A program made the position numbers and the translations under genes. 64,000 nucleotides of DNA from Telopea speciosissima (taxonomy: Eukaryota > Streptophyta > Magnoliopsida > Proteales > Proteaceae): positions 49,364,010 through 49,428,009 of the forward strand of contig NC_057925.1 in NCBI RefSeq assembly GCF_018873765.1, written 5' to 3'. Under the pieces are notes generated by a model. That model made no database searches, was not told the DNA's origin, and saw only the letters and a list, made by a program, of their open reading frames with translations. Positions 1,443 through 55,384 of the stretch are shown one piece after another (positions within the stretch are counted from its first letter, which is position 1; each line of letters begins with the position of its first letter).

Positions 1443-2565
1443 TAATGTAGCCCTAGATCTGTAGGAGACCAACTAGGAGCCAAATCAACCAGGATTTGTT
1501 ATGAACAGGTGATTCGGCTAGGTCAAAAAATAGGTTTTTGGTGAAATTAGGGTTAGGGTTTGATGTATGGGTTATTTCAAGTTATGGTAGGGGAGTCTAT
1601 CAGTGAAGGTCCTAAGATGTTTTGATGGATGGAAGTGGGTATACTTGAATTAATAGCAATATAGGTTTAGGGTTTCAGGTTTTGGAAAAGAGGAAAATAA
1701 TGGAATTTAGGGTTTTGGCTGGTCAGAAGTGGACCTGCTTTGGATCGAGTGTGTAGGGGAGGAAGAGGGATACTGGTCCTAGTATGGGCTGAATGGATGG
1801 ATGGTTAGGTCTGGGAAATTTAGGATATGAGAAACTTGAAAATAACAAGGGAGAAAGCTAGGATTGGGGTTGTAGAGGATTAGGAGAAGAAGAATGGGGA
1901 TGGGGATTCTTCCAACTTACTTGTAATTGCAGAAACTCTCCGGCAGCAGCTTGTTGGAAGTTGAAACTTGAAGATTAGATCAAACACCAATTCCACCAAC
2001 GAACCACCTGGGCTTCCCACTGCAAGGTGTCAATCGGATCAAAGTCAAACACATATCCCGCCAGCCTTGATCAAACACAAGACAAAAATCTTCAATGGAG
2101 AAGAAGAGCAGCAAAAGCTTTTCATTAATATCAAAATTCGTGTTTCAAATTTGCCCCCCATACAACCTTATATAAAAGACTCAAAAATAGACTCCTACAC
2201 AAAAAAGGAAAGGCCTAATTCAATCTTTAACTTATTAAGTAACTTAAACTGACTAGGAAACTGAAATAGATTCAAAACATAGTACTAATTCAGCCCCACT
2301 AAACACTTCAAAGAAAACTACTAAAATCACTTAAATTGAACTATTGGTTGAACCGGTTCAATTTATGAACAAAAACACCAAAATAAAACTAAGTATGGAG
2401 CTAAAACAACTAATCCCGTATGCAACCTAATTACCCATATTTTAGGCCCATAAAAGTGGCTTATTACATAGAAAACCCATAGGATCAAAGTCCCGACATG
2501 TATATAACCCAACCTTAAACTTATTCCTAAGCAAAGAAGTCCAGTTTGGTGATAAATCTGCATCA
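1443..2565 (-). mobile_element. Solo LTR-like element, TGATG/CATTA family (copy F)
   Basis: On the minus strand it starts TGATGCAG and ends CTACATTA, 1123 bp, flanked by the 5-bp duplication CTTAT (1438-1442 and 2566-2570). A TATA-like word (TTATATAAGG on the minus strand, near 2170) and an AT-rich poly(A)-signal region near 2120 suggest U3/R. The downstream half is rich in AACCCTA words. Close relative of the copy at 50493-52810. No internal retroelement genes. Confidence 0.85.
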
Positions 2566-3025: not shown

Positions 3026-6000
3026 AATCTGAACAACAGAGACGCTTCAGATTCTAGATGGAAACCAGGCTTGCAGGGGAGAGCGGGTAGGGGTGGTCGT
3101 GGAAACTATTCTCCCCGTTATGTTTCACATGGTATGAATCTAACTTCAACTTTACTTTGTCAAGCAATTGCAGCACTTCATTACTACTGGCACGTTATCG
3201 ATTTTTCACGCCCAAATATTTACTTCTACACTTCAAACCATTTCTTGCAAGTCTTTCAAGGGTAACAATGGTACTATTTAACTATGTGACTATTGTGTCT
3301 CGTGTATTTGTTCAAGCTGTGTATTTGCCTTGAGACCCTTACCAAGGCAGTGATAAAAGGTTCAAACCTTGAAGTATTGTTCTCATCTTAAGGCTCTTGT
3401 TACCCTTCTGTGGTTGGTGTTTCGTAGGAGGTTATTGTCTAGCAATTGGCTTCAAGGTCGTTCTTCTGATATCTTTTTCTTTTGGTGTGTTTTTTGTTTT
3501 ATACTTTATTCAAACTACCAGTTTCTGTTGTGCTTTACATACATACATGGTGTTTCTAAAACACTAGATGGAGGGTTTGGATTCAAGCTTACATGTTGCA
3601 CATTAGGTGGACGGCAAGTAACCACATGTTTGTTGCATCATCTCCTATTCAGCTTGGTGCCTATTCAGTTGGTGGTCTGGATATTAATCTGGACAAACTA
3701 GTTAAAAACCTTTGTCCTATCTGTGTGAACACATGTTCTAATCTGATTCCAACACAAGGGAAATAGAATGGCGCAAAACCAAAGTGATATTGGGAAACAG
3801 GAGCCAAGACTCGGGAAGTTACCACACGGAGTGGAAGCAGAGCCTTCTATTAGGTGTTGGGTTGTCTCTTCTATTTTCATTAAAAGAGCATCCCAGTGCA
3901 CAAGGCTCCCACTACTGCAGAGTCCAAGTCTCTAAGAGGGGGCAAATGTACGCAGCCTTACCCCCTGCCTCTACTATTTTTATTGTCTCAACAAAATTTT
4001 TATTCAGTTTCCCATGTGTTTAAATGACTGAGTTTGAAGTTTAAGCTTTAGGCCTTATGGCCTACTCTTTATGCATCAGAAGCTACGTGCCTCATCTCAT
4101 CTTTGTTCCTTTGTTCTTCATAGCACAGCAAGTTTTATATTCCTAAAGGGTCTGGATATTTAAATTGATGGTGATGTTGGAAACCTGCCTCACTACACTT
4201 ATTACAAATGTTTTTATGATGCACTTTCAGTGTTTGTTATGTATAATATTAAATTGTTCACTTTTTTTTTCTGCCTTGTCTGTCTTGGCAGATGCTGGTG
4301 GTGGGAGGAATACTGTGGCCGGAAAAGAAAATGGAGTCAATCAAGGCACTGAGAGAGGTGTGACACCTTCTTCTTTGCCAGCATCTCAGGATACAGAAAA
4401 TAAAGCAACGGCTCCTGTGTCAAGGTGACTTGTTGTTCACTTAATATTTTGTTGCTTCCTTGTACTCCAATCCTATTGTGTTGTGTTTTATGGATTTTAC
4501 TGACATATTTTTTTTTCCAGCTCTGTAACTGTTGTGGCCAATGGCCCCTCAACTGTGGCTACTGGGAGTTGCAGTCATGGGCGTGCCTCGCAATTGCCCA
4601 CACCTGAAGAAGGTTCAGGTTTTGATGCTGTTCATCTGGGAAGTGGACCTCCACATCCAAATGTCAATGCAAAGAGCAATGTTCCTTCACCTGCGCCTGG
4701 AGTCTCACGTGGGCAACCCACACCAAGCTCTGATCGCTTCCTGGCATCCATGACTCCTGCATCTGTGTCTGGTGTATATTCCTCGGCTTTAGATCCTGTC
4801 CTGGTGCCTTCTATGGATTCACGGCTTCCAGGTGTGGTGGGCACAATTAAACGTCAAGTAGGGAGCCAACGAATGGCTGTTGAACCAAATGCTATCATCT
4901 CTGCTGATAGCACATCAACAGCTCCTCAGGACTCCTCCAATCGTCTGAACAAAACTATAGCTTTTGATGTAACTGAATCTGAGTTGTCATCATTGATGAA
5001 TGAGAAAACTGTTTCAGAAATTGGTAACACCACGCATGGAAGGATGCTAGGCAAATCACTGGGGGTTGACAGGAATCAAATCTCTGAGCCGTCACAACCT
5101 CCATCTTCTATTCACGGCGGCTCTACAGCTAGTAGGCCTTCATCTAATTATGGCAATCGGTCACAACAACTTGTTGGTCCTCAGAAGGGTAATATACTGT
5201 GCTGAACCCCGAAACTTCATTTTTTTTTAAAAATTTTGAAAAACTGACATGGTATGTTTAGTTTTGGATTAGTATGTTAAGATATCTATGGTTAAAAAGG
5301 GTAATAGTGATATTGGAATTTTGATTTTCTTGATGGACTTTTTCTGTTTGGGAGGTGGGGGGGGGTGTTAGAAAGGAATCAATAAAATGTAGTTAATGAA
5401 ATGTGTATTTGAAGTATGAGATTTAACTAAGGTATGGTTTCTTTGATCTTAGTGCTTTGAAGTCCTTTATAACCTTTCGAAATAACAAGTAGGAGGAAAT
5501 GATAAACTATTGACATTCATTTGTCAAAGCAAGACCACAAAGTTAAGTGACTACATCTGGAAAGTGCAAATATGTGGGCTCAAATTGTAATCAAATAATC
5601 ACTCTTGAAGAAATTATGCTTGTTAAGAATAGAATTTGCTATATGTTTAGGACTATAATAAAGAATAGTAAACAACACCTTAACTAAGTTATGGTCCCTC
5701 AATTTCCATTTTTGATTTTAGTGCTTTGAAGTCCTTTGTAACCTTTCAAAATAACAAGTAGGAGGAAATGATAAACTATTGACATTCATATGTCAAAGCA
5801 AGACCACAAAGTTGAGTGAAAACATCATCAGGAAAGTGCAAACATGTGGGCTCAAACTATAATCAAATAATTTCTTCTATTCTGTTAAGAATAGAATTTG
5901 CTATATGTCTAGGAATATAATGAAGAATAGGAAACACCATTTCTCACACTGATTATTCTGTAGCTAATGTATTATTGAATAATCAGCATGACATGATGAA

Positions 6001-8924: not shown

Positions 8925-11900
8925 TACACGCACACACCAGTCTCTCTGGACTATCATTTTCCTGGGTTACTTACGTAGAACTATTGATTTTTTCCCCTGA
9001 AATTAGGTTCAGCAATCATTTGATCCCTCCGCAAGCTATTATACTCAGTTTTACCGGCCTGGTGCTGATGGTGATGGCCGCTTCTCTCCTTTCCTTGCTC
9101 CTGGAACTGCCACGAAATACAATGGGAATATTACAGTGCTGCCCCCTCAGACTGGCCAGTCTCCTCAAGAGGTTTGTATCAATCACTTTAACCTTTTTGT
9201 TTGGTACATCTTAGCAAAAGGGACTGCTGTGCTTGGTTTCTGGCACAAATGCTTATCAATCTGAATGATTCATATGTCAGGCAGCCACTTGGGTTGGTAA
9301 CTACCCAAAACCTATCCATTCTTACTAGCTTCTATTTTTATCAAGGTTCTTTCTTTTTCGAAGCCTATTAATAAAAAAATTACTCATTTGCGTGATTCTA
9401 AGCATCCAAGTGGTTTTTGTTTTCGGTGGGCCAACTTACATGACACAAAAGGAAGTGACTTTGCCCCGACATTTAGATGCTTCGGATTGGGTACATGCAT
9501 TTATGGTTTCTGTGTCTCAATGAGGTTGATTTTGATGGATATACATCCTCCACACGAAAACGCACTTGAAAGATTATTTTCTGCCACTATTTAGCTGATA
9601 AAGTGCCATTATTGCTTGGATACTTCATACTTTTGCATGCGATGGTTGATGTCACTCATCCAAAATGGTTCAATTTTGAACACTATGATGGGATTCTCTG
9701 GCTGCTTGGTTGAGGTGTTGCATGCTTCTGAAAATAGTAGAAAAATTGGGAAGAGAGAAAAATGGGAAGAACTATAGGTCAGTTACTTGATTGCTAGAGC
9801 CTGGAGGAATTCACTGTCACAACTGTGGATTGGCACTGACAGAAGAATTTGAGCCGCTAATATCTTCATTCAATCATTTATTTTTGATGGTTTTATTGGG
9901 AGGGGAAGGAGAGATTGAAGGAGGGACTTGATCCTAGGTCTGTGTTGTGATAGGCAACTGACTAAGGGTTTAAATCTGTTTGTTTCTGGCTAAAAGGATT
10001 GGGTTTTGTTCGGTTTGAGATGAAGTAGGTATAAACCAAAACCGAACCAATTATTAGTATTCAGTTTCAGTTTCCCCAACCAAAACCAAATCGTACTCAG
10101 TTTGGTCAATCGGTTCCTATTTGGTTTACACATCAACCATTGGAACTGCTAGAATGCAACACCTTAATGTCCTAACCCTATGATACCTCCAACTATACAC
10201 TCAAAGACAATCAAACCATAGATGATCTGCGCAAATTGTTAGATGAAAAACAAAAGAAGGTTATGAAGAGGAAACCCGAAATTTTGGTGATCGGGATCAA
10301 AGCCTCACATAAAAAGATTATTTATATAAAAAAATGGAGAAATGACGGCACGCGGGTTGGAGAAAGTTAAACCCTTAGCTTACCCTTGAGCATCATAGAT
10401 CCCTCCCCTCGACAGTCTGACTAAACCCTTGAGCCTTGAGCATCATAGTATCAGATTCCTCAGTGACATTCTATGGAGTCCACAAAATAAGGGCTATTAC
10501 CCAGTGCTGGTCTTGCCTATGCGGGGTCCTGGGAGGGGGTGTGGGTTTGGAGTCGGTGCTAACCTTTGACATTTTCGCACAAAGTGGCCACCCTGAAGAT
10601 TCAAACCTGGCAGCCCAAGCCTAAGCTCTTCACAATTTGCTGAGTTTTGCGGCCATGACTCATCATCTCCGTCAATGGTCGCCGCCATGATTCCTCCTTT
10701 CCTTACTGTTCTGATTTTGGTTCCCTTTGTCTAGTCTAACCCTCTAAGGTGTTGATTTGATAAACTAGGGTTTTAAAGAGTGCAGTAGGTACAGAGATGG
10801 AAAATAAAATCAGGAAATGAAGCAAGAAGCCGACCACTATTTTTTGTCTCTTCCTTTTTTTTTTCTTTTTCTTCCAATAGTCAGTCTGCAATTCCACCAT
10901 TTCTGAACTCCCTTTTAGACCTTTCCAGCCAAGATGCCTGTCTGCTTGAGGCTTGAAGCCCTAGAAGTTAGAACCTCTACAGTCTTAATGTAAGATTAGA
11001 ACCTGAATAGGTCTAATCCCAGGTAGGATCAAATTGGGATAACCTCCAGTGAACAAGAAAGAAAACAATGGGATCTCAAATTGGTAACCACAAGTGAACA
11101 AGAGAAATAAATAATAGAATCGCACAAATCAGTGACCTGTTGAAACTGCAAATAGCGTTGAATGAACCTTATAGATGTAGGATGAAACCCCAAATAGAAG
11201 AACATGATCAGAATAGAGAGAAAAGGAGATCGCTCAGCCTGTTAGGGTTTTGAAACCCTAGATTTCTCCCAAAATCGATGGTAGGGGATTGTCTCCTGCT
11301 GTGGTGATTGATCTTCAACTTGGCAGCAACTTGAAATTGATAAGAATGCCCAGGGCGAACAATTGGCAGAGAAATTCCAGCAACTTTGAAGAGTTTCTTG
11401 AGATCATCTAGGGTAGTTTCAAGAGTTGAAAAACCTAAAACCTTGCAACCGATGGAAAGGAATGGGTATCTCACCCTAGGCCTGTCAGATATCCTATCTC
11501 AGGATTTCAACATTGCATAAGCAAAGTTTTCTATTCATTCAAATCGTGGGAGCTCACAAGAGCTGATTACATGTTTATATAGCCTAATGGCTGAAACAAA
11601 AATAGAAAGTATTGTCCAACTAGGATTCCCAATTAGGAGTACAACTCAAACATAACTAGGAAACTAAAAGTCTAATAATAAAAAGAAATAAAATAAAACC
11701 TCAACATCAGCCCACGATTTTTACTGCTGATGTAGGGTAATCCCTACACCTACAGTGTTGCTGGTGTAGGGGAATCCCTACACTTGCGGCTGTACTTTTT
11801 GGCATACAGCCTAAATACATCAAGTCTTCTACTCCAAGTTTTCCATCGAGGAGTGTGAAAGTGAAAAAAAGGATGCCAAGGCCTAGTTTCATTTTCTAGC

Positions 11901-14900
11901 TTAGCCACAGCAGAGCAGATCTGAGAAAAGTGTCTTGAAGACATCTCTAGTGTCGAACTAATATATAAATCGGTTTACTCAGTTTGTATTCGGAACCATC
12001 ATGTTCTGGTTCAAAATCGAACCAACCCAACATCTAAAACAAGAACTGAACCGAACTGTAACAGGTGGTTCGGTTCATTATTGACACCCTTACAACATAC
12101 TTTATCAGCAGGACAAGCTGCCAAAGAGATCAGCAGACTCGATACTCCAACCAGTCCTCCTACCACCAAAATTTATTCACCAGTCAAGTACAGTCAAACA
12201 AGGAAAGAAAGTCCTTGTACAGCAATAAAACTCTAATTAGAAGTCTAGCCTAATTAGGAAGTAGAGATCTAGTCTAACTAGGGAAAAGAAAAAACTAAAA
12301 CAAGTAAACAATATCTAGCCACGATAGGGACACACCTCCTATTGTGTGGTTCACATGAAATCTGTACCCCCATGGTACTTAGGGTCCATTCTTTAACACT
12401 AACAAACTGACTGTCTCACCGAATTACTTCAGCTGCCTTCAACACTAACTATGAGCTTCAAAACAATGTGAGAACCAGACCTCCCTAGTTTTTTTATAAT
12501 GAGGAGAGGATTGATCCATTGGATCCCACAAATGGGCCCCACCTAGAGAGAAACTTATGTTTAACAAAAATAATCTGCAGCTCATGCAGAAGACAGTTTT
12601 TCCTGCTCCTTCTGTGGCTCCCCACAAAGAAATTTTTTTTTTAACAAAAAGAATATGCTGTTCATGCAGAATACAGTTTTTTGCTGCTTCTTATACTACT
12701 TTTGCTTCTCTGATTTGACTCATTTATTTAGGGCTTTGGAGTATGTCCCTGGTGATTGGGAATGTGTTATGTACTGCTAAAAACATCCTCAGAACTTTTT
12801 TTTTTGAAAATTTTGCAATGTTAAGAATCCTCAATTTATTAAAAGGGTTAGTGTTTGATACTGAGCTGTACATGCCTCCATGTGAGTCCTGCATACTGGT
12901 TGGTTTTTTATTAGCTCATGGTGAGTTGCCATTGGTCCGTCGTGTATTCTACAGTGTTACTTTTGGTTCCTGAAGCTCCAAGAACGCGTGTACTAATCAG
13001 AAATACTTTATGATACTCTATGGACCTTTTATTTTGTTAGTTAATCCATGTGTTTTTCCTGTCCTTATGCTTTGCGTCCAATTGCAGAGTGGCAACTCCT
13101 TGGTCCTTTCTACAGCGGCTCCAACTCCAATAGTGACTCAAGCTTCAGGAGTCATGCAGAGCTCTATAGCTGTAACTCAGCAACCGGTTCCTGTTTTCAG
13201 GCAGCCTGCTGGGGTACATATATCTCATTATCCTCCTAACTACATACCATATAGCCAATATTTCTCCCCATTCTATGTACAACCCCCAACTATTCACCAT
13301 TTTCTTAGCAACACTGCGTACCCTCAACAACCTCCAACTGGCAATGTGTATCCACCTGCAGCAGCTGCTGCCACAGGTGTCAAATACTCTCTTTCACAAT
13401 ACAAACCTGGAATTAATACCAACAACTCAACCCACATAGGAATGGCGGCTGGTTATGGACCATACAGCTCCTCCCCTGCTGTTTACAGTCCCAGTCCTGC
13501 AACAACCACAGGAAACTCTACAGGAAACGAGGATCTTGCAGCCTCTCCTTTCAAGGAAAATAATATCTACATCACTGGCCAGCAGGTTTGTCTTCCTCTC
13601 TCTCTCTCGCTCTTTTAAGATTTGTATCTGTTAATTCTACTATAGTATAAAGAAAATACCTCATGGTTCAGAGTTGTTTTAGTCCTTTATTAGAGTTCTT
13701 TTTCCTTAGGCTCTGTCTGGAAGCACAAAAAATGCAATGGTCAGAGTAAAGTAGAAAACTAGTTGTGTAATGGTTTATTTAGAATCTGGTTGAATGGAAA
13801 ATAAATCTTCAATGGAGTTTCTTTTGCCATCTTTCTCTGTAAATTATATGTCTAGAATACATGGAAATAAACCTAGCGAGGGAAAAAGAAATCTGCTGTA
13901 TTCGGAGTTCACTTTCTATTTTCTCTCTGAGGCAAATGCAAAGAGTGTGTTCTTTCACTTCAATTTCTCTACAACCAAGGGGAGTCTAGAAAAGATTGTG
14001 GATGGATGGTGACTGTATTGGAATATAGTCTAAAGCTTGTCTGTACTATTCATTAATTCTGCATCACCTGATATATGAATCAAATGGTGGATCCTGTAAC
14101 ACACTATTTCCTGGGTTATGAACCTTTGGGTTGATTTATCCTACATAGCCATATATACACATGTAGTTATATTTTTGTTGGACAGTTTCATGCTTCTAAT
14201 GTAGTTCTAGTTTGATAGTAATCAAACTAGAAACCGATACCAGAATCTGACTCAAAAGGATGACTGGATTAGGGTTTAAACTAAGGGAAATGCTAAACTA
14301 GGTTTAGGGTTTTATGGAAGTTAGGGTTAATGTTAGGTTGTTGGATTACTAATTCCAGTAATGAAATAAATTGAAATTAGCAAAACAGTGGGTGTAAACA
14401 GAATCAGCAGCAAGGGTTATGGTGAAACAGGTTAAATTTAGGGTTAGGGTTAGAGAGGAGAGAAAGTGGAGATTCTAGGGTTAGTCTGGGCAGAACCAGC
14501 TGCAATTTGGATCTGAGTGTCCCAATAGGGCAGGGGAGTACTCGATCTCAGTATGGGAGGAATCCCAAGGCTGGTTAGGGCTGGAATGGATATAGAGCTT
14601 AGAACAGAAAAGGGGAAACAGGGAAACTAGGATTTGGGGGATTTAGAGTTGCTGGCAATGAACAAACTTCAAAACAGAATTATTAATGTTGAATGGTCTT
14701 GAGATCAGAACTTGAATGTAAAAAGTAACCAAACGAATCACCCAGGCTTCCCACCGCAAGGTTTCAATCGGATCAAACACCGATTCCGTCAGCCTTGATC
14801 AAACACAAGACAAAGATCTTCTTGGAGAAGACGAGTTGCAGAGCAGCAGCCTTGAGAATAGTTTTTTTTTTTTTTCAAATTGTGAGAGGTAAGAAGTCGC

Positions 14901-17900
14901 TCCCATGAATTGTCTTTATTTATAAGGCCTAAAGGCCAACTCCTATTCAGCCTAGAAGTGGGACCCCCCCTCCCCTCAGCCGACTCTATTACAAGAGCAC
15001 CTCCTCTCTCAAAACCGTGGAGAGGAGTTAATGTAGTCCTAGATAGGTAGGAGACCTACTAGGAGCCAGGTAAATCAGAGTTTTTAACTATGTTGGCCGA
15101 TTGGGACAGAATGGATAAACTAGGGCAGAATTAGGGTTAGGATTAGGGTTTTGAGCTAGGGTTTTATTTGGTAATGATGTGCAGGTTTTTAGGAATCTAT
15201 TAATGTAGGTTTGGTTTGATTTGGACGAAGTTGGAAATCTAGGGTTTCGGGTTAGGGGCCTTGTAAAAATTGGGTGTTTTTAGAATCTAGGGTTTAGAGA
15301 TGGAATCTGGGGAAAGTGAGCTGGTCAAGTGTTAATGGCAGTATGGGGAGTGAGATGAAAATAAAAAGATCAGATTTTGATGGGTGGTTAGGTCTAGGTT
15401 GAAGTTAGGGCTTAATTAGGGTTTAAGGGATTATAAGGCTGCAATGGAGAATTGAAATTAGGGTTGTTGCCGAGTCAAGTATGAAGGCTGTGGATGAAGT
15501 TTAATGATGATTGATGGAGGGAATAAGGATGCTGGTTTGATGATCTAAATTGGATCGATGGGGAAGGTAGGTTTAGGTTAGAGGATGAGAAGTAGAAGGG
15601 AATAACTGAAATTAAAATAGCTTACTGGTTTGAAGAGATTCCCAACAACAGCAGCTTGAGCAATTGTGAGAAAACCTCCCAATCTTCACGATGCAAGGAG
15701 TCACAGGAGTCCACCCACCCTATCCACCTTGAGATCCACAAGGATATAATACTCTGAGAGCAATGGCAGCAAGCTTGAAAGCAGAAATTTGAATAATTGA
15801 ACTGTGGGGGAGCCTCCCACGTTTAAGCTTTATTTAATCAAAACTGAACAAAAAATCCTACTCAGATTAGGAGTTGTAATCCTAATCTGAATCCTAATTA
15901 CAAACATAACAATCAGACTTATAATCCAAATCTGATTTTAAAAACAAAGCAGTCCTCCTAAAAGAAATCGTGGAGGGGACATAAAAGTCAAATAAAACAG
16001 CTGAAATAATTAAGGGCCAAAAGACTAATTTGCCCTTAATTAAAGTACTTGAAAAAACTAAGTATAGAAGGCTCCAACGAAAAAACAAAACAACTGCCTA
16101 GGTCAAGGCTTCTTCTTCCTAGTGCTTGGACCTGCATCAGGAGTGGGACACTTAAGTTGTCACATGACCAGTAAAACAAATAAAAGAAATCTACTTATTT
16201 CACTTAAATTGAACCGCTGGTTCAAACCAGTTTTGGACCTGTTCAATTTAAAACAAAAAAGCATGAAAATAAAACTAAGTATAGAAAACTACTAGATACG
16301 AAACAACTACTTGGACTTCTTCGTCTTACGGATATAAGTCTTCAGATCTGCTTGGAAACCATTATTCTGGCATCGTCTTCCTCCTGCGAGCATACTTGTG
16401 CTGGAACCTTGATCCTGCAGCACCTTCTAAAAATTTTCAGAATTCAAACAAAAATAAAGAACAGTTTTCCAGACTTGGTTTTTCAATTGTAGGCTGGAGT
16501 TGTTCACATCCTGCAGTCCAAGAATCATGGGCTGGAGGTGTTCACAATCTGCAGTCCAAGTCAATTGTAGGCTGGAAGTCTTTAGACTATAAGTCGAAAT
16601 TGTGGGCTAGAAGTTTTCAAACTATTAAGTCCAAATTGTACCTTGGAGGTTTTCAGATTACAAGTCAAACTGTAGGCTGAGTTTTTAGGTTGCAAGTTAA
16701 ATTATAGGCTAGATGTTTTCAGACTATAACATAGTTGTCACGGCGTCACGGCGATCCAAGTCGGTGGAGGGGTGTCACGTCGATATATCGACATGTCGCC
16801 CGCCATGGCGAGCATGTCGACCATGTTTTATTTTTTATTTTATCTATTTTTTATGTGTTAATAGATGTATACTCAAGCCATGTTTTATTTTTTCTCTATT
16901 GTTTCTCAAGTTTTAAGAAGAAAATTCAGAAATCGAAGAGGGAAAGAAGAAATCGACAGAAATCGAAGAGGGAAAGAAGACAGGAAGAAGAAATCGAAGA
17001 GGGAAAGAAGAAATCGAAAGAAATTGAAGAGGGAAAGAAGAAATCGAAGAGGGAAGAAGAAATTGAAGACAGGAAGAAGAAATCGAAGAGGGAAAGAGAG
17101 ACACGAAGAAGACAGGAAGAAGAAATCGAAGAGGGAAAGAGAGACAGGAAGAAGCAATCAAAGAGGGTCGCCATGGCGTAGGTCGCCATGCAACCCTCTC
17201 CAGCGCCAGGACACCATGGCGATGCCATGACAACTATGGACTATAAGCAATCCAATTGTGGTTTTTAGGAGAAGCTATAAATGCACGTATTGACAATAGG
17301 CCCAAAACATGTTTTGATGAATGGAATTGGCTTTCAGCTCTTTAGTTCTGTGAGATTCAGAGCACCTATTTGTCGTGAGATGCATAAAAACATTGGTGGG
17401 ATGCCAAGTTTGTGATTCAGGTGGGACTCCTGAATCAGTTATCTTTCTTTCTTAATTTTCTCATATTTTCTTATCTTTCTATGCAGGTTACATGTCAGTT
17501 CATCCTGCACATTACTTTCTATTGAGTTTTCTAGTTCCCGTTTTCCAATAGGAAACTGTATTATTTGAGTTTGTGGCTGTTGGATCCCTTTCAAATTTTA
17601 TTATTATATTCTGTCTAGTTTGAATCTCTACTGCTAGTAGCTATTTCTCATCACTGTGGTCCAGGTTTATTGTTGGTTTCTAAATCCTAGTTCTTGATGA
17701 TTTAGAATGATAATATTTAAGAAGAAAAAATCAAGCTCTGGAAGTAGGTGGGAGATACTTAGCCTTCAACTCCTCCTTTATATCATCCTAGGTGGTAGGT
17801 TCTATGCTATGAACTTGCAAATGTTGTTCATATGATCTCCACCACCATTCCCTGACCGGTCCAATCAACTTGATGCTAGCAAACTTGGGTTCCCTGGGCT

Positions 17901-20900: not shown

Positions 20901-23900
20901 TCCTCCCCTTCTTATGCGATTTCTCCTTTCTCCTGCAAATATTCCATTTCTCCTGCAAATATTCCCTTCTTCCCTACTGGTCCTCCACCACCAGATACTC
21001 AAGTAATGAAGTTTCCTATCCGAAAGAAGGGGAATCAGAAAGTATGCGTAGGATGAACTGACATGTTATCTGATTTAGAAGAATAACAAAAATAAGAAGG
21101 GAAGATAACTGATTAATGTTGGACTCCTGAATCATAGACTTGGCATCCCACCGAAGTTGTCCTTGGCATATGATGCAGTTGCATTACACCATAAGGCCTA
21201 GGTGCATGCTTGGGAAGGCCCACACGGTGCTGGTGGCAGTCCAAAGGGCTGAAAACATGCTTTGGGTAGTTATATTATTGGTCGGGCCTTTTATTTTCTT
21301 GGGTTTCATTATCAAGGGTTTCAGTAAAGTGGGGGGTGAATTTAGTACACGGGATTAGTAGTTAAGTTTTAAAGTTGTACGTTAGGATGTTTAATAGCTT
21401 TTAAGAGTTCTTTTTTGAGTTTATTTACTTTAATTTAGTGTGTGAGAGTGATTAAGAGTCTTTTATGAGTCAGGATAGGAATTTTTAAAGGTATTATATC
21501 AATTGGACATGTATTGAGTAAAGAAATTTGAGTCTTTTTCAAGAGTTTGGTGATGTTGAGCTGTGCACATGGGATTGGATTTCCAGATCTGATCTCTCTC
21601 CTAGTTCTTTTCATCTCTGAGATCAGGTGCATATTTCTTCTCTTTGTTTTTCTCATTCTCTCGATTCTTCTAATTCTCCTCTCTTCATACCAATTTCTTG
21701 TTCTGATTTTTTTTTTTTCTGGAACTCAAAGTAGTAATTTTTGAAACTTCAAATCTAACCATTTGATTTCAATACTGCTTTCATACTTAGCAATTGGTTT
21801 TTGTTCTGAACCTTCTTTGGAACTGATTTCCTATTTTCTTACTCCAAATATGATTTCAATTTAATCGATTTTTCAAGTTCTTTTTTCTAAATCTGATCAC
21901 AGATTTCTGACTGTCATTAGGCTTGTTATTTGGCACTGAAATCAATCTCTAATCTGTTTTGTCTGAACCTTCCATCGATTCTCATGTTTAGGAATTCCTT
22001 CTTCAAGTAGTAGTCTTTAGAACTTAGGAATCTATCATTGTACCAAGCTTGATTTATAATATAATAATAATATTCTCCCTTCAAGAGGGTGGGCCTTGGC
22101 GCTATGGTAAGGTTGATCCATTGTGACCAAGTGGTCGCGAGTTCGAGTCTGGAAGCAGCCTTAGAGAGGCTGCGTACATTATGACCCTCCCCAGACCCTG
22201 CTGTGGTGGGAGCCTTGTGCACTGGGAACGCCTTTTTTTCCCAATATTCTCCCATCCAATTAGAGCTTTTGGCTGAAAAAAACCCAGCCAAACCCTTTTA
22301 CATGGATTCTACAATCTTATTTTATAAACTTTATGCTAGGGCGTTCCCCGAAACCCCATTTAGTTGGGATAAGGCTGAGTTGTTGTTGGCCAGAATTTTG
22401 GATGGATCTGATCCCTTGATTTTCTGTTATTAAAATTCTTTGGAAAACTAGTTTCATTCCTTAACTGAGATCCTATTGCAAGCGGATCTCACTGGTTCGA
22501 GATTAGCATTGCATTAGCAACCCACCAAAGTTTTCATACATCTCACAGCAAATAGGTGCTCTGAATCTCATATAACTAAAAGGTTGAAAGCCAATTCCAT
22601 TCATCAAAGTTCGTTTTGGGCCTATGGCCAATACATGTATTTATAGCTTCTTTTAGAAACCACAATTTGATTGCTTATAGTCTTTTAACCTCTTGCATAC
22701 AATTTGACTTACGATCTGAAAACCTCCAGCCTACAATTTGACTTCAAATCTGAAAACCTCCAACTTACAATTTGGATTAGTCTGAAAGCTTTCGCCCAAC
22801 TATTTGGGCTTATAAGTCTGAAACTTCCAGCCTACAATTGACTTGGACTGCAGAATGTGAACACCTCTGGGCCACAATTGAATTGGATTGCAATGTGAAC
22901 ATCTCCAGCCAACTATTGAAAAACCCAAATCTAAACCAGATTTGGTCTACAGTGAACTAGAAAACTGCTGTAAACCGAATCCAAAGGTGAACCGCAAGCC
23001 ATTATTCTGGGCTGGTCTTCCTTATGTGAGCATACTTGTGCTGAAACCTTGATTATGCATCAAAGGTGCCAATAGCTTTTATGTGCATACAGAGGTGCCT
23101 AGCTTTCATATTATCAATAGACACGGCATTTATGTACATTGACACATGCTCTGCATTCTGTTTGTCTCCAACATTTGATGTACTCTAGCTTTGCCCCACT
23201 TCATCACTGATGAATGGAGGAAATTGCATACATTGAACTGCAGGCAAGTAGGCAACACAAATGAATGGAGATGCTTAACATGTTTTTCAATCTAATCATG
23301 TTGCGGATTTCTCATAAAATATTTGCCAAGATTTTAGCATTCTTAGGCCTGATTTGGTATGATTTCTATTTTAGTTTCAGATTGATTTTATGAAATAGTC
23401 AATAAATAGATTTTTGGTCAAGAAATTGAAATTGTTTTGGTTGCATAAATCTGAAATATTTCAAAAATAAGATATTTATTTTGTTAGTTTAATTCGTGGG
23501 AATAGATTCTTTCTTTTCCATTGTGATGGAGTTCTCCACATTGTTGCCCTGACGCTGCTGCCTTGCCACTTCTGCAAGCCCTGCGCAAGTGCATCGTCGC
23601 ACCAGCACACCTGCAACCTTCATGAAAGCACCCCTCATCCCCCCGCAAACCCCAAAAAATATTACTACTAAGTATTGGGATGGCCAAAATGAATGTCGGC
23701 AACCCAAGTACACAAGGACTCTGCCAATGTTAGTGTTAGCTACATTTGCCGCCTATATATCAGCGTAGACCATGCCTCAAAACTGCTCTATTGTGTAAAA
23801 TAGCTGCATGTATGCACCGATTTTTTTTATTATAGTTTCAAGACTTTTGAACAGTAGTGGATTGAGAAAGGCAAATATGGTTACAGCTACTGGACAGAGA

Positions 23901-46863: not shown

Positions 46864-49800
46864 TCATGCAGATGGAAGTTGAGGTGTAGACGATGCAGCT
46901 CTGAGTTGGAGCCGACTCATACTTTGTTCCATGCTCCGGTGAACCATGTCACGCAATAACCTCTTGGCAGTTTCAGCAGCTTTGTCTGCACCATCTACTC
47001 TTTTAGCAATATCATAAGCTATGCTCTCCAAAACCGCAGATGCCAATCTCTTTTGTGGAGGAGAATCTCGAAGCAAGTCCAGCAGTGTCCGTGCTCTCTC
47101 CTGTGCTTTCTCTGTGCCTTCTGCAGTTAAGTGCAGAAGACCTGGGATTGCGCCTTCTTTGAGGATGAGTTCTCTGTACTTACTGCGGCAGCTCTGGCAC
47201 AGTGAGAGTAGAGCCCCTACTGCATGCTCTGTGCTGATCAGGGACCCATCTTCTATGGTTTCCACCAGGGTTAGAATTCCACCTTTGGAATTTGATATTG
47301 CTGTTCGACCTTCTTCATAGTTGGACAGCATTTCAAGCAAGGCAGTTGTCTTCTCAGCAAATTTGGAGTATTTTTTGCATTCCTTGAGGAGGGTGAGGAG
47401 GGGAGGAACCGCTTCAGTAGCTAGGACGGGATTAAGGATTGTTGTGCCGGAAGAGAGGTTGTATAGGGCTGTAACTGCATCAACTTTGCCTTGCAGACTT
47501 CCAGAGCTTAGGATCTGAACGAGAAGGGGGGCTGCTCCAGAAGCAGCAATTGCTTGTTTGTTAGAAGCGGAGGCAGAAAGTGTCAGGATTGCTGCCGTGG
47601 CCAGCTCCCTTAAACCGCCATTTTGGAACTTGAGGAGCTCTATAAGTGGGGGTATAGCACCAGATGTCACTATCCTGACCTTGTTTCTGAGAAAGAAGAA
47701 GAAACGATTGAATCAGATAAGCCATCAGTATACTATAAGAAGAAGAAATTATTGGATCAGATAAGGCATCAGTATACTGCAAGAAAAGGCAACATGATGT
47801 AAGGATCAAGACCAAATGCAAAAGAATGAAAAACAGTCGCAGAAGCACATCAGGTATTCAAATAAAAGCCTTGCCCCTGTCAAATGCTTTGCATAGGCCT
47901 ACAATTTTTACTGATTCATTAAGGCTCCTTTTATTTTATTATTATTATTTTAAAATTTTTTTTTTTTGGGGGGGAGTGGGGGAGAGTTAAATATTAAGGT
48001 TCCATTTTTTCTTAAAATTATTGTGAAGGCTGCTGGTTGGATGTGAAATGTTGTGAAATGAATTCCAAACAAAATGGGAACTTTCCAACTAATGCCAACA
48101 ATAATAGTGCCTGAATCAAAACATTAAGTAACGCAACCAAAATTTTCAATTAAATTTCTTAGACTTTTGAGCAAAAATATTTACTCCAATTTCAACCACC
48201 ACCTAAATCTCACTATATCCTGTTCTGCTACTGGTATTTTCTTTTTCGATTATTACACTGAGAAAGTTTTACATGAAACCATACAGAGCCTTCAATAAAG
48301 AACGCAGAGAACATGCAGAATATTTTAAGAAAAGTCTAATAGCTTAAAAACAAATAGTTATTGTTTTAGGTAACAGTTGGAAAGTCAGGTAAAATATTTC
48401 CTTTCCATATTTTCCAACAAAATCTGTAGGATTCAGTTGGAAAGTTAATTACTAAATTTAGTGAATTTTTGGAACTAATTACAATTGTACTGGAATTAGT
48501 TGGAAGATTTCCTCTTCCCCTCCACCCCCAACTTTTTTTTCTGAGGGGGGGAAGGGGGGAGGTTTACCTTACTATCATGATAAGCCTAAAGATTTTCACA
48601 ATAGCTGTAGGCAAAATGAATGATATGAGAATTGGAAAAGGAAATGGGGAGAAAGGAAGATTAAAAAAAGAAAAAGGAAAACCTCTTCGGACAGGAAATG
48701 GGCAATAGGTTCAAGAGATAAGTTGATGATACATTCACGGAGGCTTTTCTGTTTCCTATTGTATCTGACGACGAGTTGGAAGGATTGAGAGAGGTTTTAG
48801 GGAAAGATAATGATTTTATTGAGGAAACCTTGCCTCCATCTCCAAAGAATTTTTTTTGGGATTTTTAACATATCTCTCCATTCATTATCTCAAAATAAAT
48901 AGGGTAAAGGGGCATATCCAGTGCACAAGGCTCCCTCCCGCCACTGTGGGGTTTGGGAGGGTCATAATGTACGCAGCCTTACCCCTGTTTTTGCTGAGAG
49001 GCTATTTCCAGACTTAAACCCATGACCTCTTGGTCACAATGGAGCAACCTTAACTGTTGCACCAAGTCCCACCCTCCTCAAAATAATTAGGGTAATACAA
49101 ATAATTACACCTAACCCATGTACATTACTTACGTAGATGTTAAAATAACCCACAATAACTGATAGGAATAACTACTACTTAATAATTGACAATAACTGGT
49201 AATACGAACCATCTCGCAACAACACCCTACCTTCCACGATTTAGGTGAGGAGGAGGTTAGAATGTATTAGGATTTGGCCTTAGGCCTTTATTATAAATAA
49301 AGTGGATCGTGGGAGGCTCCCCCACATTGAGATTTGAATAAAAAAAAAGACTTTCTGCTGCTGGCCGAGTGCTACTGCTGCTGCTCCTTAGAGTGTTGCC
49401 TTGTGGATCTATCAAGGACGAAGGATGGGTGGATTTCCTGTGATTCCTTACGCCGTGACGGCTGGGAGGTTCTCTTTGTGAAGGTGGTTCTATCCTTCAA
49501 TAGTAGATTTGCTGCGGTGGATATCTGCTGTAAGTCTATATTTAAATATCTGTTTCCATTCTTCTTTCCCCCCCCCCCCTTCGATCCCTCTTGTTTTTCT
49601 ATTTGAATTTCTAAAACCCTAGATCATCTAAGTCTTACCCAGCCATTATCCTACATCTGTTTCACACCAAAATCAGATCACAGCCTCCCCATACCAATCC
49701 CTCCACTCGACCAGACCTGCAGCCCATTCTAATCTGTCCAAACCCTAAAATCCCCCAACTCCATTAAACCCCCAAAACCCTAAATGTCCAGATTCAGCAA

Positions 49801-52800
49801 TTCTAACCATCAAAACCCTTCCTTATTTGGATCGAACCTTCCCCTCTCTATTTAGTAAACTTAATCCTAAGCCCAGCCCTATTCATCCATCTAAACCCTA
49901 GCTTTAGTGATTTCCCTAATTCCTAAAAACCCGAAACCCTATCCCTAATTCTGCAGGAATTTTAAACGGAACCAAATCCTGTTTTCTTTATATCATAATA
50001 GTCCCCTAAACCTGCATATTAAAACCATATAAGACCCATTCCCAAATTCCTATCCTAAACCCTAGAATTAACCTAAAACCTAGGCTGTCCATGTGAACTA
50101 GCAGCCCCTTTTTGCTATTTATTCTGTTATCTGGCTCCTAGTAGGTCTCCTACCTATCTAGGACTACATTACAAGGTCCCATATCTTAATAGAGACAATC
50201 CCAAAAAATGAAGCAAGAAGAGCATGCATGACTGTCTTGGGCAATGGCCATCTCACGACTTGCAGACCCAGGCGTAGGGCATGACATCACCCTTTTTTCT
50301 ATTACGACTCTTTACAGATTTTGTGGCTTTAAACATGTGAACTTTAAAGGAGCGGCGCCTGATTTGCATCGTTTGGACTTCATTTTCTTTTTCTTAGTAT
50401 TTGTCTGCCTCAAGTGCATTATAGTTTTTGCTTCAATTGGTAGCAACTCAATTGTATTGGCTACCACCTTTTCCTTCAATCTCTTAACCTTGTGATGCAG
50501 ATTTATCACCAAACTGGGCTTCTTTGCTTAGGAATAAGTCTAGGGTTGGGTTACATACATGTTGGGCCTTTGATTCCATGGGTTTTCTATGTAATAGGTC
50601 ACTTTTATGGGCCTAAAATATGGGTAATTAGGTTGCATAAGGGATTAGTTGTTTTAGTTCCATACTCAATTTTATTTTGATGTATTTGTTCATAAATTGA
50701 ACCGGTTCAACCAATGATTCAATTTAAGTTATTTTAGTAGTTTTCCTTTAAGTGTTTAGTGGGGCTGGATTAGGACTCTATTTGAGTCTATTTCAGTTTC
50801 CTAATCAGTTTAAGTTACCTAATAGGTTAATGATTGGGTTAGGCCTTTCCTTTTTAGTGTAGGAGCCTATTTTGAGTTTTTTTATATAAGGCTGTAAGGG
50901 GGGGGCAAGTATTGAACACGAATTTTGATATTAATAAAAGCTTTTTGCTGCTCTTCTTCTCCATTGAAGATTTTTGTCTTGTGTTTGATCAATGCTGGTG
51001 GGAATGGTGTTCGATCCAATCAACACCTTGCGATGTGAAGCCCGGGTGGTTTGTTTAAGCTCTCTTTGTTCTTTTGAAACCCTACTTTCAAGTTCAATTC
51101 AAGTTTTAATTTTTATTAAAGATCTACAATTAAACAAGCTGTTGCCAAGGAAATTCTGCAACAACAATGAGTTTGAATCATCCCAATCCCTTCTTCTTTT
51201 AATCCTCTCATAGCCCAACCCTCTTTCCCCCTTTTTGTTTTCGAATTTTCCAAGACCTAAAATCTCCATAGACCAAACCAGCTCAAACTTGGATCGAATT
51301 TCCCTCTTACCCTTGATGCAGCTCCAAGTAGGAAGAAGAAGAAGAAGAAGAAGTCCTGAACTTAGGGTTTAAGTAGGGAGCCATAGGTTAGGTTTATTTT
51401 GCTTGCATTTTCCATACTTAGTTTATTTTCTGTTTTTTAAATTGAACCGGGTTAAATTGGTGGCATCCAATTGGTTCAATTGGTCTAATTTAAGTGAAGT
51501 GTTCCTATTGGCTAATAGGTTCTTAAATCCTATTGGCTAGTATGGAATCTTCTTTTAAATCAGTAGTTTGAAGTTAGAATATTTTAATTTAAGTTAATAG
51601 GGATAACTAAGTCTTTTCAGGGTTTTAAATTAGTAACTTTGTTTTAATTAGGTTCCTTCCACAATTTTAAGTGAGGAGGTAGTTAGATTGTATTAGGATT
51701 TATGAATTGGCCTAAGGCCGTATTATAAATAAATAAAATCGTGGAGGCTTCTCCATAATTGAATTTTGAAAAGAAAAGACTGTTTGCTGGCTGCCGATTG
51801 CTGTTGTTGCTGCTGCTCCTGCTCCTTGCAGTGTTGCCTTGTGGATCTATCAAGGAAGGACAGATGGACTTCCTGTGACTCCTTACGTCGTGACGGCTGG
51901 GAGGTTCTCTCTTTGTGAAGGTGGTTTCATCCTTCATTGATCAAGCTGCTGCCGGTGGAATCCTGTGGTAAGTTTGAATTTAAATTCTGTTTTCCATTCC
52001 TTCTCCTTCCCCATTCGATCCCCCTTTAATTTCTGTTTTAATTTCATAAACCCTAGTTCAATCTAGGTTCTGTCCAGCCCTATCCCCTCACCCAAATCCT
52101 CTCAGATTTCAGGCATATCATCCCTATCCCAGCCCCTATACTCGATCCTAGTTTGAACCCAATCTGATCATCTAAAACGCAACTTCAAACCCCCATCCAA
52201 AACCCTAAGTTTCACCCTAGAACCTGAAACCTAACACCCAAACCCTAACCCTAATTCTGCAGGAATTTTAAACTCATCCAAATCCCAATATTTTTATAAC
52301 AAAATAATCCCCTAGACCTGCTGATCATTACCATATATCACATTCACCCCTAACCCTAGCCTAAACCCTAAATTTGCCCTAAACAACCCCAAATCTGCCC
52401 CAAACAACAGACTCGATCAAAACTTGATTTTACTTGGCTTCTAGTAGGGCCTTACCCTATCTAGAACTACATTAACCCTAAGGAGAACTCGATCCAAATC
52501 CTAATCCAAATCGTCCACTTAAAACCCTAGATTCCCTCATTATTCCCTTTTCAAAAACCCAAAACCATAAACCTAACCTGCTGCTAATTCATTCCAGCAC
52601 ACTTCTAACCATTAAAACTTAACGTACCCTTCACAGATAGACTCACGTACATCAACTTGACCTAACCCTACCATCAAACCCTAGGTCCCATCAAACCCTA
52701 ACCCTAATTTCACAATTTACACATATTTTGACCTAGCCAAAATACCTAGTTGATAGCAAATCCTGGTTATTGGCTTCTAGTTGGTTTCCTACCAATCTAG

Positions 52801-54268
52801 AACTACATTACCTTGCTTGAGGATTCTTCCATTGCAGGGTTGTTGGATGATGTACGCGATCCAAGGTTTTCAAACAACTCGATAAGCTTTTCCATGATTC
52901 CGGTAAACTTCCCCATGATTTGTTGTTGCCCAATGTGAAGTGAACTCACAACGCCTTCCAATTTCTCAACCCTTTGTCTCATTCCTATCTTTGATACCAT
53001 TTGAAATATTCACGGAAGCATTTCTCTTTCCTATTGTATCTGAAGACGAGTTGGAAGGATTGAGAAAGATCTTAAGGAAAGATAATAATTTTATCGACGA
53101 AACATTGCCTCCATCTCCACAGTGGGATTTTAAACAGATATTTCCATTCATTATAAATAGGGTAATACAAATAACTACATCTAACTCGCATCACTTATGT
53201 AGACGTTAAAATAAACCACAATAACTGATAGGAGTACCTACTAATTAATAACCTACAATAACTGGTAACATAAACCATCTCGCAACATCCTACTTTCCCT
53301 ACTACTTCTAACTACAACAAAACTTCATGCACCTTACGTCATGTAACTACTAATGCCTGTGACAGTTGAAACAAAGTAAATGGATAGGAAAGTAAAAGTT
53401 TTATCTTTGTAGAGGGTAGACAGTCAAGAGATGGAAAATAGGTTCTTGAGCAATCTCAAGACAAAATGGGAGACTATCAGAACCCAATTATGGAAAATGG
53501 AAATAATTTCAAGGTATAATCTGAATAGTTATAACCCATCATAAAAACAAACACAGCTTTACAAAAAATTTCAATTGGGTGCCTCTCACTAAGTTCAAGT
53601 GATTTTGTCTCTTTGCTCAATTTAATATAATGATTATCACACTCTCCTTCCCCGGGTGCGCGAGGTGCTCAAAAGAATAATAAGTTCCTTCTGCTACAAC
53701 ACAAATCAAAGTCGGGAGGAACTCCAGAGTGGGCGGGTTAAGTGATCCATCAAACCCTAATTTAGAAAAGTAACTCTTAAAAATAATATATCTAAGTAGG
53801 GGAAATGGAGGACAATGAAATCCAAATTATGGTAAAGAAGCAATAGTAGCAGACTCATATGGCCAACCACAAAACCCAACTAAATCTGTTTCTTAAATAA
53901 GAAGCAAGCAAGAAAAGGAGGAGGAGGGGAGCGACGAACCGTTCGTTACGAACGGCGAGATTGAGGAGAGCAAGGAGAGCAGCTTGTCTGGCATCGAGGT
54001 TGGAAGAGGCGAGCATGGAGACAAGGGGTTCGATGACACCAGCGATAGCAAGGTTGGAGCGGGTCTTGACAGAGGTCTTGGCGAGCTTCCTGACGTCTCT
54101 GGCAGCCTGTATCTTGGACTCAAGGTCACCATTAATGACCTTCCGAGCCAGTTCTTGGATTAGGGTTTGCTTTTTCTGAGTCCATGTCTCTCGACTACTC
54201 TCCTCCTCTTCCCTGTCCGTTGTTAATAGTACCGCCTCCCGTGACTCCACTTCCACGTCCACCCCCAT
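46864..54268 (-). CDS. Armadillo-repeat protein (U-box-less, PUB4-like annotation group)
   Basis: Two exons, 53940-54268 and 46864-47686; 384 codons (383 residues), phase 2 junction giving RNERNKVRIV, stop TGA at 46864-46866. The first 35 residues are acidic and probably disordered. The rest is a string of ARM repeats: AIPPLIELLKFQN, AAPLLVQILSSGS, AVPPLLTLLKECK, GGILTLVETIEDG, AIPGLLHLTAEGT, each followed by helices ending in A-x-x-AL-x-NLS-like words. No U-box is present. The C-terminal tail (RSMEQSMSRLQLRAASS) is basic. Proteins of this group are often auto-annotated as U-box protein 4; ARM folds bind protein partners, so a scaffold or adaptor role is inferred, not shown. The single 6.25-kb intron holds a gypsy remnant and nested solo LTRs. 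A truncated SINE sits 142 bp upstream of the ATG. Confidence 0.92.
48907..49077 (-). mobile_element. Au-like SINE inside a gypsy LTR
   Basis: The minus strand has a GTGCAACAGTTAAGG A-box region, a box-B-like GGGTTTAAGTCTGG and a GTGCACTGG 3' end. A 17-bp duplication (TCAAAATAAATAGGGTA at 48890-48906, one mismatch at 49078-49094) marks the insertion; the uninterrupted site is visible in the sister LTR near 53150-53170. Confidence 0.93.
49232..50171 (+). mobile_element. TGATG/CATTA family LTR, 5'-truncated (copy C)
   Basis: Starts inside U3 (TTTAGGTGAGGAGG), shares ATAAATAAAGTGGATCGTGG and GTGTTGCCTTGTGGATCTAT with copies B and D, and ends GGACTACATTA at 50171. AACCCTA words are dense from 49600 on. 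The missing head abuts the gypsy 3' LTR. Confidence 0.75.
50493..52810 (+). mobile_element. TGATG/CATTA family solo LTR (copy A), split by copy B
   Basis: Starts TGATGCAGATTTATCACC and ends GAACTACATTA, with perfect CCTTG duplications (50488-50492 and 52811-52815). Removing copy B and one duplication leaves 1152 bp. Has TATATAAGG near 50882 and AATAAAAGC near 50934. Closest relative is copy F at 1443-2565, in the other orientation. Confidence 0.9.
51314..52474 (+). mobile_element. TGATG/CATTA family solo LTR (copy B), nested in copy A
   Basis: Starts TGATGCAGCTCCAAGTAGG and ends GAACTACATTA, 1161 bp, perfect ACCCT duplications (51309-51313 and 52475-52479). A TATTATAAATAAATAAAATC region near 51722 gives the TATA/poly(A) zone. 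A GTAAGT word follows at 51968. Downstream half rich in AACCCTA words. Confidence 0.92.
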
Positions 54269-55384
54269 AGTCGATTTTCGTTATTTGCTCTCTCCAAGCT
54301 AGAGGATAAGAGTGTTACTGTCTATATATATACATGAAAAATGATGATGATGTTGCTTCTCGGGTTGGCGGGCACTTGGTACCGCGCAATTTCTGACCCG
54401 GCCCATCCAAACAAAGAGCGTACCCACTGCACGAGACTCCCGTCATCACTGTAGGTCTGGGGAAGGTTATAATGTACGCAGCCTTACCCCTGCTTCGCAG
54501 AGAGGCTGTTGTTTCCAAAGACTCGAACCCATGACCCGGCCCATCCATCTCCCACGAATTGCCTTCCACTCTCAATTCTAAAAGTCTTGATGTCTTGAAC
54601 GGTTGAACCATTGTTTCAAAAATTGGAATTGGATTGATTGAATCGGCTAATCGGAATAGGTAGTGATCAATCCCAATTCTAGACATTTTGGAGAATTGAA
54701 TCTAGGGTTTTGAATCCTGATCGCTGGGTTTTCAAATCTAAGGGGCCAATTCTCAAGTTTTTAAGACTGATTTCGGCTGATTCGACCTTTGATTCCGAGT
54801 TTAAAATTCTTACCTTGTCTCATAAAAACATGATTTCAAAATATTGGATTGGATTTTGCAAATTGATTGACCCCGAACTCCTCTTGATTGGAGCGTGTAC
54901 ACGAACATCCAAGGAAAGGGGTAGGGTGATCATTTCACTGCTTTGTGTGAGAGGACAATCAAAGTCCTTATAAGCATTCACATCTATCGTGGGATATCTG
55001 TCCCTCCATGTAGGGCTGGAGTACTCATGAGAATTAAGAGTTGTTATGTCCAACTCTGATACCACTTGTTGGGACTTGGCTAGAACTCATCTTTAAAAGC
55101 TAACCATTAAGGGGAGGGTGTCCAAATCCTAATAAACCTTTCAGAGATCAGATCTAATATATGGAATCAATGTTTTCCAGTGCAACCCCAACATTTTCCA
55201 CTCAAAAAAAAAAAGCAACCCTTCAAATTGTTGGGTGTTCATACAACTGTGATTAGCATATTAGATTGTTATCATGGCACCACAATCAAAGACAAGTGAT
55301 AATGAAATGGCTCCAACAACAATGTTTAAGGAAGGATACATCATACATGTATGTCTAACAACCACAGAGTACTGTGGGGCTAAA
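54269..55384. other. Promoter side of the ARM gene and downstream side of ABCG26
   Basis: Includes a (TA)-rich stretch at 54321-54333 (possible TATA region for the ARM gene), a SINE at 54410-54531, and 54590-54850 with GATTGAATCGG-like repeated words similar to 32730-32900. No gene seen. Confidence 0.5.
54410..54531 (-). mobile_element. Au-like SINE, 5'-truncated, in the ARM gene promoter region
   Basis: The plus strand shows CCCACTGCACGAGACTCCCG, AATGTACGCAGCCTTACCCC and GACTCGAACCCAT (box B on minus). Perfect 16-bp duplications TGACCCGGCCCATCCA at 54394-54409 and 54532-54547 frame it, so the insertion looks young. It lies 142 bp upstream of the start codon at 54268. Confidence 0.93.

Follow-up and report, generated by a model that had tools for sequence, protein, structure and literature searches.

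Chromoviruses of the CRM clade (centromeric retrotransposons) are described by Neumann et al. (2011, PMC3059260) as elements with long terminal repeats (LTRs) of 299–1225 bp, 5-bp target duplications and a tRNA-Met primer-binding site (PBS); the ends are given there as TGATG/CATCA, with most elements showing TGATG and T/CATCA, and group C elements are described as having a type II chromodomain whose end is near the 3' LTR. From Coffea, with rice mentioned, PMC5818461 reports CRM elements of TR-GAG form, and a solo-LTR regression across fifteen plant species (y = 2.69 + 0.00114x) is given in PMC7251063. We examined a stretch of 64,000 nucleotides of Telopea speciosissima (contig NC_057925.1, positions 49,364,010 to 49,428,009; hereafter the window) in which an original prediction, made from the letters alone, had placed eight copies of one family with TGATG...CATTA ends, taken as solo LTRs or as stand-alone units. 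The copies are very probably solo LTRs of related Ty3/gypsy elements of chromovirus type, with TGATG...CATTA ends, 5-bp target-site duplications (TSDs) and a tRNA-Met primer, which most likely arose by LTR recombination within a group that includes many non-autonomous elements.

Copies within the 64-kb window

The eight predicted intervals were extracted and compared pairwise, their flanks were checked, and the window was compared with an LTR library of 39 sequences taken from this genome. Seven of the eight belong to the group and are read as follows.

1443..2565, minus strand: solo LTR, 1123 bp, TSD CTTAT (5/5).
10986..11822, minus strand: solo LTR, 837 bp, TSD AGTCT (5/5).
14197..16422, minus strand: decayed outer LTR, net 1110 bp, flanks GCTTC/CCTTC (4/5), split by 15029–16139.
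15029..16139, minus strand: nested solo LTR, 1111 bp, TSD GGAGT (5/5).
49230..50171, plus strand: 5'-truncated LTR lacking roughly its first 323 bp, with the CTACATTA end intact.
50493..52810, plus strand: outer solo LTR, net 1152 bp, TGATGCAG...CTACATTA, TSD CCTTG (5/5), split by 51314–52474.
51314..52474, plus strand: nested solo LTR, 1161 bp, TSD ACCCT (5/5).

The net lengths of the two outer copies were obtained by subtracting the nested copy plus its 5-bp duplication. The five perfect duplications were present at the copies for which they had been named (for randomly chosen 5-mer pairs of comparable spacing in the window, the frequency of a 5/5 match is 0.00145 and that of a match of at least 4/5 is 0.0195); for the GGAGT copy the predicted end was right, and the start is 15029 instead of 15030. 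On its own strand, 10986–11822 reads TGATGTAT...TTACATTA, and the other four of the five copies read TGATGCAG...CTACATTA on theirs; the LTR ends are thus TG...TA, in agreement with the earlier statement that they depart from TG...CA. TG...TA belongs to the accepted set of non-canonical termini for LTRs. As complete copies with perfect duplications, five of the eight stand; 14197–16422 is decayed, with one end mutated to GCAGCA, and 49230–50171 is 5'-truncated, without a TGATG start and with base 49231 aligning to position 324 of the full LTR.

Two subfamilies had been proposed. Pairwise, LTR-library and autonomous-LTR comparisons place the copies in at least three sequence groups instead: 50493–52810 is related to 1443–2565 in two blocks (80% and 71% identity), 14197–16422 has blocks in common with both of these, and 10986–11822, a member of the group, is most similar to the LTRs of the autonomous elements described below (71.7% over 191 bp, 75% over 120 bp), shorter matches to which occur at the ends of 1443–2565, 14197–16422 and 50493–52810. 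The exact 12-mer PBS TTGGTATCAGAG is absent from both strands of the whole window.

The density of copies had been called unusual. The window holds 4 exact LTR-end 16-mers against 0.20 expected from the genome count, to which extent the claim is borne out; since the probability of at least 4 is about 6e-5 per 64-kb window and the genome has about 12,860 such windows, the window is a locally rich spot and not unique, and the kind of family is not unusual.

The eighth interval, 21171–22505, was rejected as a copy of the group: it ends in CGAGATTA, its flanks match at 4/5, and it gave no match to the 39 LTRs (E 1e-6) or to two autonomous LTRs (E 1e-3). A separate short repeat, common to positions 22085–22239, 48918–49076, 54409–54484 and 3891–3958 of the window, overlaps this interval.

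Genome copies and the LTR nature of the ends

The genome searched was an 823-Mb assembly (contigs C1–C11, 57–88 Mb each). With 51314–52474 as query there were at least 49 matches, from the 40 scored of 3138 candidates, and end-to-end copies were 83–94% identical. Forty matching regions were fetched, three of them overlapping others; truncated or interrupted copies among them were left uncounted, and 21 distinct copies, chosen by similarity, were aligned from base 1 to base 1161. These 21 end where the ends had been predicted; 16 are flanked by perfect 5-bp duplications, four match at 4/5, and the remaining one (L013) serves as 3' LTR in a two-LTR element flanked on its outer sides by GTTAC. 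Other genome copies also matched 1443–2565 over 1–1123 (12 copies) and 10986–11822 over 1–837 (9 copies). A sample not picked by similarity was taken from the head of the LTR-end 16-mer listing, at the start of contig C1. None of its first 10 LTR ends has a PBS; five show a perfect TSD (one of which reads TGATG, the LTR start motif itself), one a mismatch, and four could not be judged, one having its start at the slice edge and three having no start within the 351-base slice.

In the genome, 121 places have the LTR end followed by the PBS NTTGGTATCAGAG (0 for the backward-pattern control), and at 67 the purine tract GGNGAGAGT precedes one form of the LTR start (0 for its control). The PBS begins immediately after CATTA and the purine tract runs up to TGATG, both in exact register with the TSD-defined boundaries; the PBS after the LTR reads TGGTATCAGAGC, which we take to be the complement of the 3' end of plant tRNA-Met. 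Of the 30 PBS loci taken first (contigs C1 and C2), a second LTR lies no more than 1.5 kb downstream in 17 and is absent there in 13; the paired LTRs of the 17 are 90.7–98.9% identical over the part seen, and the 0.67–1.34 kb between them is too short for pol. Terminal-repeat retrotransposons in miniature (TRIMs), defined by very short LTRs plus an internal region, were considered and rejected, the LTRs in the library comparison measuring 0.68–1.22 kb and mostly 1.0–1.2 kb; the usual TRIM size limit lies below these lengths.

The exact LTR-end 16-mer ATCTAGRACTACATTA occurs 2615 times in the genome (control 0); it is joined to a strict PBS at 65 of these places and to a relaxed PBS (limited variation) at 247 (controls 0). 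Assuming two such ends per complete element, there are (2615 − 2 × 247)/247 = 8.6 single ends per complete element, an upper bound because the single ends include truncated copies and because complete elements with a decayed PBS are missed. The value covers the subfamilies with the exact ATCTAGRACTACATTA end; autonomous elements, which end in ATTACATTA, fall outside the count. Some plant families exceed this solo ratio. A ratio of 38:1 from the strict PBS (65/2615) was dropped, because the PBS variants AGTGGTATC and ATCAAAG exist, and the 657 matches with up to 3 mismatches anywhere in a 29-mer could not be divided by 2615, because the LTR-end part was relaxed too. Among 20 consecutive LTR ends at the start of C1, PBS presence is clear-cut, one end being followed by a perfect PBS and the other 19 differing from it at 6 or more positions.

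Two other arrangements of these LTRs were seen. At C3:55204176–55206434 two LTRs of the 1443–2565 type stand in direct tandem with one base between them, and the PBS at L060 (C1 near 65467000) is followed immediately by an inverted LTR start together with the 3' end of an internal region, as in a composite or rearranged copy.

Autonomous relatives and non-autonomous elements

At four of the 30 PBS loci (L051, L068, L076 and L078) gag and, where seen, protease follow directly after the PBS. Two of these loci were followed as L081 and L082, in which the element's two LTRs are 97.1% and 98.4% identical. Their LTRs start with TGATGTAA in three of four cases and with TTATGTAA in the 3' LTR of L081, and the PBS is of the Met type; L081 is flanked by GCAAG/GCAAG and L082 by GTTAG/GTTGG, and the purine tract GAGAAGGGGGGAGT is somewhat unlike GGGGAGAGT. 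Pfam domains were scanned in L081, where gag (PF03732, 3.8e-18), reverse transcriptase (RT; PF00078, 7.7e-26), RNase H (PF17917, 7.8e-33) and a Tf2-1-like SH3 domain (PF24626, 1.2e-15) lie above cut-off, and an integrase core (PF00665, 8.7e-5; 23.2 of 32.6 bits) and a chromodomain (PF00385, 3.1e-5; 24.3 of 25.1 bits) lie below it, in the expected order. Gag, RT and RNase H follow the Ty3/gypsy order, and the frames of L082 read like those of L081.

The internal regions of the non-autonomous copies are of three types. The first has gag and a zinc knuckle and no pol: in L080 (same locus as L064) Retrotrans_gag (PF03732, 1.8e-14) and CCHC (1.7e-6) follow the PBS, with the purine tract and the start of the 3' LTR about 1.8 kb after it, and in L031 gag lies between two LTRs that are 1.6 kb apart. 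In the second type a gag start or a protease-like piece is joined to a common 3' segment (EFVMPPWFFEE...), and in the third a 5' open reading frame (ORF) of no known identity is joined to the same segment. Of 33 internal sequences (31 distinct loci), 18 contain this 3' segment, behind gag, protease-like or other 5' segments. The frame of L077 is open for 369 aa from the PBS onward. The common 3' ORF segment of the L049–L080 internal regions gave no match at cut-off in Pfam and none in PDB up to E 1.

Gag of non-autonomous and autonomous elements is mostly 42–55% identical (34% for one 90-residue piece), and the protease-like piece is 56% identical; among 12 sequences searched, the non-autonomous L080 (E 3e-6) and L029 (E 3e-4) retain a recognisable end of the chromodomain ORF. 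L029, at C1:25117358–25130115, was tried as an autonomous copy by reason of its 5.1-kb internal region and rejected: gag and a zinc knuckle lie near the 3' end, and no pol domain was found in a scan of 7 of the 12 listed sense frames of at least 60 aa. An insertion in L029 is likely, because gag lies about 4 kb from the PBS, versus about 0.5 kb in L059. The 5' LTR of this two-LTR element (L029/L030) is split by about 5.4 kb, and LTR positions 769–776 stand on both sides of the split, as though another element had inserted there with an 8-bp target duplication.

Codon tests were made on gag and on the two ORF segments, taking the ratio of nonsynonymous to synonymous change (dN/dS). The median for the C-terminal part of gag was 0.18 in 16 non-autonomous pairs (0.09–0.71) and 0.17 in 6 autonomous pairs (0.08–0.82); for the N-terminal part it was 0.29 in 14 non-autonomous and 0.13 in 6 autonomous pairs. 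The gag sets thus have medians of 0.13–0.29, with a third-position excess of differences, and stops occur in several non-autonomous gags. The 3' ORF gave a median of 0.52 (152 pairs; position differences 0.185/0.124/0.179) and the 5' ORF 0.67 (78 pairs; 0.083/0.086/0.079), so that both are closer to neutral than gag. The pairs are not independent; pairs with saturated synonymous sites were dropped, L060 was excluded (opposite strand), and two entries duplicate loci under other names (L064/L080 and L029/L054). Part of the gag constraint may predate the loss of pol.

Origin of the single LTRs and relation to known systems

Were the copies stand-alone mobile units, e.g., a non-autonomous DNA transposon that has short, imperfectly inverted ends (TGATG/TAATG) and makes 5-bp duplications, they would look much as the single copies do, showing short inverted termini, the duplications and nothing else. 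The same ends, however, flank two-LTR elements with the Met-tRNA PBS and the purine tract in exact register (controls 0), and some of these carry gag or pol between their LTRs; the DNA-transposon reading was rejected on the register and the two-LTR copies, and we hold it to be extremely improbable. Solo LTRs, which had been offered beside stand-alone units, are supported by the two-LTR copies, the flanking 5-mers and the internal region with its PBS. It is very unlikely that the single LTRs come mainly from truncation, assembly collapse or recombination between different elements instead of recombination within one. Truncation does occur, at 49230–50171 and in several of the 40 fetched regions, which are truncated or interrupted, and one unselected copy has non-matching flanks; against this origin, the flanks match in 16 of the 21 both-ended copies (plus four at 4/5) and in five of the six judged unselected ones.

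The success of the short two-LTR elements would be explained if they encoded a functional accessory protein, i.e., the EFVMPPWFFEE... 3' ORF with its varied 5' segments. The open frame of L077 and the recurrence of the 3' segment behind different 5' segments speak for such a protein; the ratios of both ORFs, closer to neutral than those of gag, and the empty Pfam and PDB searches speak against it. The dN/dS of the 3' ORF, being below 1, leaves room for weak constraint. The idea, not supported by the codon test, seems very unlikely to us. Doubtful, too, is a modular non-autonomous system in which varied 5' cargo (gag, a protease-like piece or another ORF) is combined with a common 3' ORF and common ends, selected gag comes from some members and pol from others, and spread is by way of the integrase of the TG...TA-ended chromovirus.

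In the preferred explanation, that of solo LTRs of chromovirus-type elements, many elements of the group are non-autonomous, with two LTRs around 0.67–1.8 kb without pol, and some with gag and a zinc knuckle only (TR-GAG type). They were most likely moved by the RT and integrase of autonomous relatives with the same PBS and terminal motifs. Recombination between the two long LTRs of one element would then have deleted the internal region together with one LTR, as the anatomy of the copies suggests, and the product would be one LTR within an intact duplication; insertion of younger elements into older LTRs would account for the nested copies in the window. Several points weigh against this explanation. 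One of the six judged unselected ends is without matching flanks (AGACC/CCTTG); the solo ratio, hence up to about 8.6, is derived from exact 16-mer ends only; the integrase and chromodomain matches of L081 are below the Pfam cut-offs; and the LTRs of autonomous and non-autonomous elements share short stretches only (66–96% over 24–128 bp; up to 191 bp in the window). The helper relation is thus a putative one, resting on common ends, the PBS and gag/protease similarity of about 42–56%.

The group is most likely of the CRM type of chromoviruses, judged by its ends, the 5-bp duplication, the size of the LTRs, the PBS and the terminal chromodomain. It has in common with the clade as described in PMC3059260 the TGATG start, variable 5-bp duplications, the LTR size range, the tRNA-Met PBS and a purine tract; like group C elements, L081 has a chromodomain-like end close to the 3' LTR, its match being below cut-off. 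The 3' end differs, CATTA being one letter off the published T/CATCA, and the PBS sites here are spread over the chromosomes. With TR-GAG elements as described in PMC5818461 and PMC10552921 the group shares two LTRs, gag without pol, and PBS and terminal motifs as in autonomous chromovirus-type elements; this combination was found in part of the group only (L080 and L031), whereas many copies show no gag and carry ORF segments of no known identity. The single LTRs are products of the kind described in PMC7251063, where recombination leaves a single LTR; the value here, at most about 8.6 single ends for each complete element, exceeds the regression given there, with methods that differ.

A literature search on solo LTRs and retrotransposons of Proteaceae found nothing; the family may be unnamed in this plant, and its kind is already known. 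The original prediction is partly confirmed and its observation was largely right, the true LTR boundaries having been found from the sequence alone, without tools. The group is ordinary except for a single altered terminal letter and its large proportion of single ends, and it raises no new question of principle. It adds to a plant genome a large CATTA-ended group, rich in single LTRs and non-autonomous copies, which is useful for repeat annotation and for the study of element removal by LTR recombination.

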